Shown piece by piece: positions 12,777-32,755 of a stretch of 35,601 nucleotides of DNA (the first letter of the stretch is position 1; every line of letters starts with the position of its first letter). Made by a program: the position numbers and the translations under genes. The DNA comes from Saprospiraceae bacterium (GTDB taxonomy: Bacteria > Bacteroidota > Bacteroidia > Chitinophagales > Saprospiraceae): contig JANTGI010000015.1 in the NCBI GenBank assembly GCA_024762995.1, positions 1 to 35,601 on the forward strand, in the 5' to 3' direction. A model generated the notes under the pieces. It saw nothing but the letters and a program-made list of their open reading frames with translations, was not told the DNA's origin and did no database searches.

Positions 12777-12780
12777 ACCC

Positions 12781-12811
12781 TTGTAACTATTGCAAAGAGT
12801 ACTTATCTTTG
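12781..12811 (+). promoter_or_regulatory. Consensus Bacteroidota promoter (TTG-N20-TATCTTTG)
   Basis: TTG at 12781-12783 is spaced 20 bp from TATCTTTG at 12804-12811, an exact match to the known pattern. Transcription would begin near 12818. The next element downstream is a strong terminator hairpin, so the product would be a transcript of only about 60 bases unless it reads through towards greA. Confidence 0.5.
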
Positions 12812-12833
12812 TAGTAGAGAAAAACAGTTTTTT

Positions 12834-12877
12834 AAAACAGGAACGTTTCTTCATTGGAAGAAACGTTCCTGTTTTAC
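12834..12877 (+). terminator. Strong hairpin terminator
   Basis: A perfect 19-bp stem (12834-12852 with 12857-12875) with loop ATTG ends in TTTT. It lies 57 bp after the PorV-like stop and 23 bp after the promoter at 12781-12811. It may terminate the PorV-like gene, a short RNA, or both. Confidence 0.85.
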
Positions 12878-13092
12878 ATAATCGTAACTATCTAGGTACT
12901 CGCAGGTTTTTGCCATAAAATGCCCTTTTTGCGCCTGCCTGCACTTGCAGGCTTGTTTTGCCCAATTTTTCTCACGTAGTTAGGCTACTCATCAATAAAT
13001 TGGGCCCTACCTTATTGGTAGGCAGGGTCAACATACGCAAAAATGACTATTTTCTGACGAAAACAGGGATACCTATACAGTTACCCATAATC
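12876..13092. repeat. Imperfect 8-bp direct repeat flanking MITE copy A
   Basis: The 8 bases left of the element are ACATAATC (12876-12883) and those right of it are CCATAATC (13085-13092). Seven of eight match, as expected for an ageing target-site duplication. An 8-bp duplication is the length made by IS66-family transposases. Confidence 0.65.
12884..13084. mobile_element. MITE-like element, copy A (201 bp)
   Basis: The element starts GTAACTATCTAGGTACTC and ends ACCTATACAGTTAC, so its ends are imperfect inverted repeats. The left 95 bp align with copy B (32551-32646) at about 85% by hand, and the right 48 bp align well too, while the middle differs. It has no open frame of note. Terminal GTAA and an 8-bp flanking repeat suggest a non-autonomous relative of IS66-family elements. 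It separates greA from the region upstream. Confidence 0.75.
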
Positions 13093-13106
13093 TAATTAGT
13101 GCAGTT

Positions 13107-13580
13107 ATGACAGATGTGAATTACATTACCAAAGAAGATTTTGAAAAGCTTCAAGCCGAAGTCCGCGAGCTAAAAACCAATGGCCGAAGAGAAGCGGCTA
13201 TCGCCATTGCGGAAGCAAGAGAAAAAGGTGACCTTTCGGAAAATGCAGAATATGACGCAGCAAAAGATGCTCAAGGTATGCTCGAACTCAAAATTAATGA
13301 ATTGGAACTGGCTATCGCCAAATCCAAAATAATTGATGTTTCTGACCTTGATTTGTCGAAAGTGACCGTACTCTCTAAAGTGACCATCAAAAATATAAAA
13401 AATGGTCAAATTATGAAAATGCACCTAGTCGCAGAATCAACTTCTGATGCCAAAAATGGTAAAATCTCCGTTTCTTCTCCGGTCGGCAAAGGACTGTTGG
13501 GGCATGAAGTGGGGCAGGTCGCAAAAATTCAAACTCCCGGTGGTATCATAGAGTTTGAAATCATGGATATTTCAATTTAG
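13107..13580 (+). CDS. greA: Transcription elongation factor GreA, 157 aa
   Basis: GreA binds the secondary channel of RNA polymerase and stimulates cleavage of backtracked transcripts. The N-terminal coiled coil (about 8-75) carries the family motif GDLSENAEYDAAKDAQ at 45-60, with the acidic residues that reach the polymerase active site. The C-terminal FKBP-like domain contains ISVSSPVGKGLLGHEVG at about 117-133. Length is normal. The HIT gene starts 4 bp after the stop, so the two are probably co-transcribed. The upstream promoter region is occupied by a MITE-like element ending 22 bp before the start codon, and no clear promoter is visible between them. Confidence 0.96.
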   Translation: MTDVNYITKEDFEKLQAEVRELKTNGRREAAIAIAEAREKGDLSENAEYDAAKDAQGMLELKINELELAIAKSKIIDVSDLDLSKVTVLSKVTIKNIKNGQIMKMHLVAESTSDAKNGKISVSSPVGKGLLGHEVGQVAKIQTPGGIIEFEIMDISI

Positions 13581-20711: not shown

Positions 20712-22742
20712 ATGGACAATTCGACAAAATCAATGTTTGACAGTAAAGTGATGGGTCATCCGGCTGGATTATTTATCCTATTTTTCACCGAGATGTGGGA
20801 GCGGTTTTCGTATTATGGAATGCGGGCCATTTTAGTGTTGTTTTTGGTGAGTGCAGTTGGTATCGGTGGTTGGGACTGGAGCAGTAAGCAAGCTTTGGCG
20901 TTATATGGGACATATACTGCGATGGTTTATTTGACGCCCATATTAGGTGGTTATTTAGCGGATAATTTTATTGGTTATCGGAAAGCGGTGATACTTGGAG
21001 CGATTATTATGACGATGGGTCATGCGTCTATGGCTATGGAATTTGCGCATATTTTTTTGTATATTGGGATTGGTTTGTTGATTATTGGTAATGGATTATT
21101 TAAGCCGAATATGACGTCCATTATTTCTCATATGTACAAGGATACACCCGAAAAGAAGGATGGTGCCTATACCATTTTTTATATGGGCGTTAATGCCGGC
21201 GCCTTTTTGGGTATTTTGCTCTGTGGCTATTTGGGGGAGAAAGTAGGTTGGAGCTATGGCTTCGGAATGGCCGGGATATTTATGTTTATGGGGATGTTGC
21301 AGTTTTATTTTGCTCAAAATATCTTCGGGAAAATAGGTCTGGCGCCTGCAAAACTGGAAGAAGGCGAAGTGCACGAACCCAAATTAGAGTTTCCGGAAGA
21401 TCGTCTAAATCCTTTTACATCTTTCGATAAAATACTCATCGCCATTAGTGTAATTATAGGTGTGAGTTGGATTATTAATGACCCGATGTCGGCGATAGCC
21501 AATAAGAATTTCTTAAAAATTGGTGATTTTGATTTTTCTAATTATTACATTTTATTTGGGGTCATTACATTCTTGATCTTAATATTTTCAAGGATATTTA
21601 GATACCCTAAGCAGACTCGAGACCGGATGTTGGCGATTGTGATGTTTGCTATTTTTACGATATGTTTTTGGGCTAGTTTTGAGCAGGCAGGTGGTTCGAT
21701 GACTATTTTTGCCAAAGACTTTAGCAATCGGGTTATGTCCGGACAGTGGGCGACCATTTTTAATGTATTCAACATCATTATTACGGTAGTGCCCATTGGG
21801 ATTATCACCTACGTATTGTTTTTGTTGTTTAAGCAAACCTTCTCCAAATATCCCGTTGCCAATATCATTTTAGGATTTAGTTTTGTGATTATTTGGGGGA
21901 TTGTCTTTTGGATGATTAATCGAGATTTGGGTTCTACATCTTATGAAGTGAGTTATCAGGCCATTGAAACAATGAACGATGAAGGGAAACCCGTCTATAC
22001 AGCCATCACAGAATCCACCACAATACCGACTGATGCCAAGGTGGTGGAAAGGAAAGAAAGTATTATTGAGCCGATTAGCTTACAAGTCGGGTCAGAGTTG
22101 AACTTATTAAAAGTAAAAAAGAAATTTATTTATCTGAATGATGAAAAGTCCGCCAAGGTACTTTCCCTTTCGGAAAAATCACCCATTATCAAAGCTAAAG
22201 TGACACGACTCAAAGATAATGAAGTTGAGATTCCTGCTTCTTGGTTTTCTATCCTAAACTCTTTGTTTATCATCATGTTTGCCCCACTTTTTTCCAGGTG
22301 GTGGGAGAGTAAATACAATCCAAGTGCTGCCGTGAAGTACGGACTAGGATTGATTTTGTTAGGTGTTGGATTTGGAGCATTGGCCTTTGGTTCATTATCC
22401 ATTCCGCAAGGAGCGGCCGTCGCTTCTGTAAGTATTATGTGGCTGGTAATCGCCTATTTGTTCCATACCTTGGGTGAGTTATGTCTTTCTCCGGTGGCGT
22501 TGTCATACATCAGTAAGTTGGTCCCGGGGAGGATGATTGCCTTGATGTTTGGGGTATGGTACATCGCCGTAGCGATAGGTAATAAGACAGCCGGGAAAAT
22601 GGGTGGAGCCATCGAAGAGATAACCGCTCAATACTCGATGACGACCTTTTTCTTGATATTTACGGTAATTCCAGCAGGTTTGGGATTGATTGCTATATTA
22701 TTGAGTCCGGTTGTTAAGAAGTTGATGCATGGGGTGGAGTAG
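20712..22742 (+). CDS. POT-family peptide transporter 3 with large insertion, 676 aa
   Basis: This proton-coupled oligopeptide transporter has TEMWERFSYYG (helix 1, about 26-36), the PTR2 signature FYMGVNAGAFLG (about 156-167), SFEQAGGSM in helix 7 (about 322-330) and LSPVALSYISK in helix 10. It is about 225 residues longer than transporter 1. Most of the extra length lies between residues 344 and 506: two hydrophobic segments (about 348-372 and 381-402), then about 100 soluble, charged residues before EIPASWFSILNSLFI, where similarity to transporter 1 resumes. A further addition is the membrane hairpin near 240-297. The frame is intact throughout. Confidence 0.92.
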   Translation: MDNSTKSMFDSKVMGHPAGLFILFFTEMWERFSYYGMRAILVLFLVSAVGIGGWDWSSKQALALYGTYTAMVYLTPILGGYLADNFIGYRKAVILGAIIMTMGHASMAMEFAHIFLYIGIGLLIIGNGLFKPNMTSIISHMYKDTPEKKDGAYTIFYMGVNAGAFLGILLCGYLGEKVGWSYGFGMAGIFMFMGMLQFYFAQNIFGKIGLAPAKLEEGEVHEPKLEFPEDRLNPFTSFDKILIAISVIIGVSWIINDPMSAIANKNFLKIGDFDFSNYYILFGVITFLILIFSRIFRYPKQTRDRMLAIVMFAIFTICFWASFEQAGGSMTIFAKDFSNRVMSGQWATIFNVFNIIITVVPIGIITYVLFLLFKQTFSKYPVANIILGFSFVIIWGIVFWMINRDLGSTSYEVSYQAIETMNDEGKPVYTAITESTTIPTDAKVVERKESIIEPISLQVGSELNLLKVKKKFIYLNDEKSAKVLSLSEKSPIIKAKVTRLKDNEVEIPASWFSILNSLFIIMFAPLFSRWWESKYNPSAAVKYGLGLILLGVGFGALAFGSLSIPQGAAVASVSIMWLVIAYLFHTLGELCLSPVALSYISKLVPGRMIALMFGVWYIAVAIGNKTAGKMGGAIEEITAQYSMTTFFLIFTVIPAGLGLIAILLSPVVKKLMHGVE

Positions 22743-22805
22743 AGAAAAGGCATGCCTTGTCTCTACTATAACCCCTGCATGCAGCTAGTCCTTCTTTTCA
22801 ATAGT

Positions 22806-29690: not shown

Positions 29691-29738
29691 GTAACTGTTT
29701 AGGTACTCGTTAGTTTTTGATATAAAATGCCCTTTTTG
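29691..29738 (+). mobile_element. MITE-like element, left-end fragment (copy C)
   Basis: GTAACTGTTTAGGTACTCG, a 3-base gap of similarity and then TTTTTGATATAAAATGCCC match the first 48 bp of copies A and B. Similarity stops after 29738, and no right-hand end is present before the pth gene. It begins directly after the rnpB terminator T run. Confidence 0.7.
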
Positions 29739-29787
29739 GTATTATTTTTTACTCCTTTGTTTTGGCTTTGATATTCAAGCACTTACC

Positions 29788-32550: not shown

Positions 32551-32755
32551 GTAACTGTTTAGTTGCCCGCTAGTTTTTGCTATAAAATGCCTTTTTTGCG
32601 CCTGCCTGCCCCTTCAGGCCTGTTTTTGCCCAATTTTTCTCACGTAAGATGATACAAGGTATGCCTTGTATCTACGTATCAAAAGGCATAGGCAGGTTCA
32701 TCAGACACAAAAATGACTATTTTTTGCCTAAAAACAGGAGCACCTAAACAGTTAC
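32551..32755. mobile_element. MITE-like element, copy B (205 bp)
   Basis: The ends GTAACTGTTTAGTTG (32551-32565) and CACCTAAACAGTTAC (32741-32755) are inverted repeats with 14 of 15 matches, and similarity extends imperfectly about 50 bp inward. It aligns with copy A at both ends but has a different middle, which contains a palindromic ATACAAGGTATGCCTTGTAT near 32652-32671. Flanking 8-mers agree at only 5 of 8 positions, so any target duplication has decayed. It has no coding capacity. Confidence 0.75.

Follow-up and report, generated by a model that had tools for sequence, protein, structure and literature searches.

Miniature inverted-repeat elements with IS66-type ends form a genus-wide family with a copy before greA in a Saprospiraceae genome

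The 201-bp segment at positions 12884–13084 (forward strand) of the window, the whole stretch of 35,601 nucleotides that was analysed, is a genuine inserted miniature inverted-repeat element (MITE) and one copy of a genus-wide family. It is short and without a transposase gene, has terminal inverted repeats, is flanked by a target-site duplication of fixed length (8 bp), occurs in many dispersed copies and is missing from orthologous sites in related genomes. To judge from their sequence and from the duplication length, the two ends are very probably acted on in trans by a DDE transposase of the IS66 family, from its single-ORF ISBst12 group.

Structure of the Element and its Site

The left arm (GTAACTATCTAGGTACTCGCAGGTTTTTGCCATAAAATGCCCTTTTTGCGCCTG) occupies 12884–12937 of the forward strand and is 96% identical to a hand-typed consensus of the left arms of the copies, with similar arms in congeners. 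The right arm (13028–13084, forward) has the terminus ...CTATACAGTTAC, one mismatch from the end motif of the family. Between the arms, the predicted fold places an inner stem, GCCCAATTTTT/AATAAATTGGGC, at 12960–13005 (forward), where the like region of the 163/164-bp copies is paired and compensated, and within this stem an apical hairpin, GTAG-TTAGG-CTAC, at 12976–12988 (forward). The termini read GTAACTATCTAGGTACTC... at the left and GTAACTGTATAGGTATCC... inward from the right, so that the imperfect terminal inverted repeats starting GTAAC, which an earlier sequence-only reading had described, are directly visible; its description of the element as non-coding also holds, no ORF of 80 or more amino acids overlapping it. 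The 8-bp flanking repeat which that reading had given as identical in seven of eight positions consists of ACATAATC at 12876–12883 and CCATAATC at 13085–13092, which differ in their first base.

The element folds nearly end to end with a predicted energy of -68.6 kcal/mol (z -5.1), which none of 200 shuffles equals. Searches of 12780–13130 against Rfam give 11 matches, none of which reaches the gathering score of its family. A sigma-70-type scan finds one promoter-like site against 1.2 expected, and one terminator-like site lies inside the element (12933–12952) against 0.4 expected; neither is clearly above chance.

The start codon of the ORF at 13107–13580 (forward), which from its similarity is probably greA, lies 22 bases past the end of the element. 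There is one full-length greA match in each of G000 (the genome of the window) and its congeners G001, G002 and G003, and there are two partial matches in G004. Upstream, TATCTTTG at 12804–12811 together with TTG at 12781–12783 resembles the Bacteroidota promoter pattern TTTG/TAnnTTTG, and similar TAnnTTTG words are seen by eye at a like place before greA in congeners. If this is the greA promoter, the element would lie in the greA leader. The insertion may affect how greA is expressed. Shortly before greA there is also a near-perfect hairpin, AAAACAGGAACGTTTCTTC/GAAGAAACGTTCCTGTTTT (12834–12875), which by eye is present in altered form in each of the five genomes of the genus (the window and L263, L264, L265 and L266). 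With the upstream TAnnTTTG, this hairpin could be a greA leader attenuator.

Distribution and Diversity of the Family

In the assembly of its genome (G000; 3.68 Mb in 241 contigs), the window forms contig C15. A search of this whole genome with 12884–13084, as the sequence-only reading had proposed, finds many further copies, some of them with 8-bp duplications. Among the 40 scored out of 150 first-look candidates, at least 44 matches have E <= 10, at least 43 are below 1e-4 and at least 20 span the whole length (positions 1 to 200 or 201). Among 40 related genomes, five match at E <= 0.001 (G000, G001, G002, G003 and G024), G024 with one short match alone. The end motif, with up to two mismatches, occurs at 195 places compared with 18 for a reversed control. 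A stricter pattern with at most one mismatch gives 77 sites in G000, 85 in G001, 272 in G002, 429 in G003 and 0 in G004, an assembly that is 79% complete, and its reversed control gives 0 in each of the five. Since each element has two ends, G003 holds roughly 200 copies. In 298 genomes of the family Saprospiraceae, the end-motif search finds matches in 17, of which 13 are outside the genus; 12 of these have one or two sites, about the control level, and G172 has seven. The left-end pattern is also present in at least two Saprospiraceae MAGs (JALVEF and CAMZKG records) in a scan of named genomes, and the exact end pattern has no match in IMG/VR.

The retrieved loci yield 153 distinct copies whose two ends are separated by 40–420 bp and for which 12 bp of flanking sequence is available (101 from G003, 36 from G000, 10 from G002 and 6 from G001); up to four mismatches were allowed at each end, so that decayed copies are among them. 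The common sizes are 58, 77–80 and 163/164 bp, and G000 has additional copies of 182–205 bp. In G003, 10 of the 48 copies of 57–59 bp are letter-identical, a sign of recent spread. The window itself contains a second copy of 205 bp at 32551–32755 (forward), recognised by sequence matches, in which the apex is swapped for a GATACAAGG...CCTTGTATC palindrome, and a fragment of a third at 29691–29739 (forward), recognised by the end-motif scan and the arm consensus and comprising the left arm only. For 119 copies with 700 bp on either side, crude ORF calls, which allow a rough picture only, place nine inside an ORF, 76 between ORFs of the same strand, 20 between convergent and 11 between divergent ORFs, with three undecided.

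The retrieved loci also contain 119 ends with no partner within about 400 bp. Of the 65 that lie within 400 bp of the edge of the retrieved stretch, which is not always a contig end, 61 enter MITE-like sequence (4/5 in G000, 7/7 in G001, 3/3 in G002 and 47/50 in G003), as do 26 of the other 54. The remaining 32 show no common IS body by eye, as judged from those in which 70 bases or more follow the end.

Several palindromes accompany the family. A composite form of 322 bp in G003 (L073, 1501–1822), with an 8/8 duplication by eye and no ORF over 87 amino acids, contains a nested palindrome starting TGTACAGAGCGAATCGGTT, and the same start is found in L070 and L134 of that genome. A second dispersed palindrome, GTA-GATACAAGGCATGCCTTGTATC-TAC with variants, which we liken to the REP-like GTAG...CTAC, occurs outside MITE copies at 22742–22763 of the window and in L004, L025, L034, L038, L084, L085 (136) and L095; it replaces the apex in L013 (window position 32651), L014, L021 and L022. 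Another exchanged apex, GTAGGGACGCACGGCCGTGCGTCCCTAC, is found in L234 (1501–1662, G002), where the surrounding MITE is flanked by a perfect 8-bp duplication, and near position 1575 of L250.

Target-site Duplications and Empty Sites

The flanking 8-mers of the 153 copies are identical in 60 and agree in at least seven positions in 84, compared with 0.053% and 0.63%, respectively, when flanks are re-paired. Flank identity peaks at an assumed length of 8 only (0.725), with values of 0.38–0.46 for lengths of 4–7 and 0.34–0.42 for 9–12. In G000, eight of the 36 copies have a perfect duplication and 13 have at least 7/8; copies below that level number 69 of 153 overall and 23 of 36 in G000.

In the spacer before greA, G002 reads ...CCTGTTTT-ACATAATC-AAAACCGCAACTCT-ATG, without the element and with ACATAATC present once, and comparison with this site indicates that it is the right copy of the duplication in the window that has changed by one base. 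G001 is likewise uninterrupted (...CCTGTTTT-AATTATTC-TAAATAGTGCGACT-ATG), and G004 also lacks the element, in a spacer too divergent to align by eye. G003 carries a different insertion before greA, flanked by ATGTAGCG/ATGTAGAG, in which a 59-bp family copy with a 7/8 duplication is nested. As for the second copy in the window, the gaps orthologous to 32551–32755 lack the element in G001 and G002, whereas a search of G003 found no match to the neighbouring gene; the flanks of this copy agree in five of eight positions by eye and show no clear duplication. The proposal that the flanking repeat marks an insertion is borne out by the further copies and by the empty sites of the relatives, including the single ACATAATC of G002, and so is the MITE nature of the element. 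That the segment is immobile, a structured repeat or RNA conserved by descent in this intergenic region, would fit the strong fold and the base-pair covariation described below, but uninterrupted orthologous sites, 8-bp duplications and nested copies contradict such immobility, which we consider next to impossible.

Terminal Sequences and the Candidate Transposase

The sequence-only reading had taken the element for a likely non-autonomous relative of IS66 from its GTAA ends and 8-bp repeat. The one complete IS66 of G000 (L080) is of the three-gene type (tnpABC) with ends GTAAGCGTCCGAGCAA; three-gene ends of this GTAAGCGTC-like kind are not matched by the element, and the two have GTAA alone in common. 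The assignment fails for the resident three-gene IS66, which its different ends rule out as the mobilising partner, and stands for single-ORF IS66 elements, probably of the ISBst12 group, whose ends the element does match.

These single-ORF elements come from other genera of Saprospiraceae. An IS in G055, reached through the end-motif search, has broken ORFs with matches to zf-IS66 and DDE_Tnp_IS66, and one of its transposase pieces, used as a query, finds nine of the 298 family genomes at E <= 1e-10. Pfam DDE_Tnp_IS66 is present in all nine elements, and the NCBIfam IS66 transposase model is over its cut-off in all eight that were scanned. In each of the nine, one end or both come close to the MITE end motif, and these ends are of GTAACTA(T/C)T(T/C)AG type. 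GTAACTA stands at both ends in six (L254, L255, L256, L258, L259 and L260) and at one end in L225 and L257, the other end being GTAACCATTC and GGAACTAGAC, respectively; a single end was found in L261. Three copies have 8-bp duplications: L258 of G124 (1497 bp, GTAACTATTTAGG at both ends, 7/8), L254 (1478 bp, end GTAACTACTCAGG, 8/8) and L255 (1465 bp, ends GTAACTACTCACG/GTAACTACTCAGG, 8/8). There is no clear duplication in L256 (5/8), L260 (3/8) or L225 (none by eye), and the sequence of L259 stops at its right end. Because they combine a single ORF, matches to IS66 models and GTAACTA-type ends, these elements probably belong to the ISBst12 group. The MITE shares with IS66/ISBst12 both the GTAACT-type terminal sequence and the 8-bp duplication, although its similarity to the ends of the IS extends over about 13–18 bp only.

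The search for an IS66-like transposase with matching ends, which had also been proposed, thus succeeds in other genera and finds none in G000–G004, draft assemblies that could hide one. PF03050 has no match in G001–G004, and within the five genomes it is found in G000 alone, as the complete IS66 and one fragment; of two ISBst12-type pieces used as queries, one has no match in G001–G003 and the other none in G000–G004. The fragment, an IS66 remnant on contig C33, has no matching ends that could be seen. Among end pairs 0.8–5 kb apart in G000, an 851-bp pair in contig C1 encloses a 191-amino-acid ORF that by eye is not transposase-like, and the longer pairs in C17, C5 and C4 have partners that by eye are unrelated or decayed. 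No IS6/IS240 transposase is present in G000.

Other elements with related ends were encountered in the family. Different short elements with GTAACTATTTAGGT-type ends and, by eye, 8-bp repeats are present in G042 (L220 and L232, with GTTTTTTT and GAAATATC) and in G111 (L218, with ATTATTTT). G172 has a multi-copy element with GTAACTATTTAGGTAGCC ends, present as 94-base contig tips alone (contigs C30, C86, C89, C93, C122, C156 and C160), and no IS body could be located for it among the contigs. As this assembly lost the body of a repeated IS, the absence of such an IS from G001–G004 is weak evidence of true absence.

The segment is best explained as a gene-less transposon on whose two ends a transposase acts in trans, duplicating 8 bp of target on insertion. 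Most likely this enzyme is a DDE transposase of the IS66 family, from the single-ORF ISBst12 group, now lost or unassembled. At this site the element entered the short stretch between the conserved hairpin and the start codon of greA. This choice of enzyme is favoured because IS elements from the same family of bacteria have closely similar ends, with 8-bp duplications in three copies; as no matching transposase was found in the genus, we infer mobilisation by an ISBst12-type enzyme from these relatives. Several IS families beyond IS66 duplicate 8 bp, and a transposase of one of them could have moved the MITE, the GTAACT end then being common to both by chance. Such an enzyme would fit the lack of an ISBst12-type transposase in the genus genomes searched. 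However, at least one end near the motif in nine of nine sister-genus IS66 elements speaks against coincidence, IS6/IS240, the sole other family searched, is absent from G000, and the partnerless ends in the retrieved stretches share no longer body by eye. We regard another family as unlikely.

Predicted Fold of the Interior

The fold was examined in an alignment of 30 hand-picked copies out of 47 distinct copies of 160–166 bp. The 17 omitted are near-duplicates and irregular copies (among them L071, L183 and L234, with changed centres), and their omission favours a regular fold. RNAalifold pairs 54 columns, 98.0% of the cells of this structure pair, and 13 of the 54 pairs have changed on both sides. 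The covariation score is 0.140, compared with 0.055 in shuffles (none of 500 reaches it) and 0.02–0.04 when the structure is slid; the alignment scored here is also the one that yielded the structure, which gives the structure an advantage in the slid control, and the relatedness of the copies inflates the shuffle control. Further pair types number 20, fewer than the 23.3 in shuffles. Helices 5 and 6, the two stems adjoining the apical stem, contain nine of the 13 doubly changed pairs. Among 18 facing column pairs that lie outside the structure and were chosen by hand, six pair in at most three of the 30 copies (30/138, 32/136 and 57/109 in none, 49/117 in one, 41/126 in two and 59/107 in three) and three pair in at least 25.

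The interior may, tentatively, be kept as a folded strand, since doubly changed pairs are seen across four species and some mismatches between the arms have lasted. The hairpin may then be needed either as single-stranded DNA in transposition or as RNA, for instance in leaders and spacers like the one before greA. The compensatory changes may instead reflect correction between the palindrome arms at the DNA level by template switching, an account that is compatible with a MITE and calls for no selection on the fold. Copying from arm to arm is easiest near the apex of a palindrome, where nine of the 13 doubly changed pairs lie, but frequent correction should erase facing mismatches such as the six that pair in three copies or fewer. 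Arm correction is quite plausible, if short of probable.

Relation to Known Elements and Implications

The closest described relative appears to be ISDge4, placed in the ISBst12 group by its authors; according to the available passages of that report (PMC12898284), it has terminal inverted repeats GTGACTACTCAGCA/GTAACTGCTCAGCA, an 8-bp repeat and one transposase gene encoding 449 amino acids. The MITE resembles it in GTAACT..TCAG-like terminal repeats and 8-bp duplication and differs from it in being gene-less. In the same passages the case is presented as the first active transposition in the group, and one of the titles cited there, which concerns ISBst12 and S-layer loss, points to an earlier one. 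ISBst12-group elements of IS66 seem little studied in the literature sampled. As far as the accessible parts of their descriptions go, the IS982-derived MITE of Cardinium (PMC9769881) and MITEPye1 of IS1182 (PMC11578231) are likewise short and gene-less with the end repeats of a known IS, and MITEPye1 is also intergenic with a predicted long stem-loop. Both belong to other IS families and have a matching IS named in the same genome or species, whereas none was found for our MITE in the genus genomes searched. BrickBuilt of Porphyromonas gingivalis is also a MITE in Bacteroidota and, from the portions of its description at hand (PMC4596501), differs in an internal minisatellite, ISPg-type ends and duplications of varying length. 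The portions of the open-licence literature covered yielded no MITE of ISBst12 or IS66 origin, and the accessible text of PMC3189936, PMC8024623 and PMC3281130 names no IS66-derived one.

Such repeats may break assemblies, as the 61 of 65 partnerless ends near stretch edges that enter MITE-like sequence suggest. If the folded strand is indeed needed, an element that relies on a DDE transposase would be under an unusual constraint. The family offers 84 natural insertion records with a duplication and, as a genus-wide MITE family with forms of 58 bp, an indication of how little sequence may suffice.
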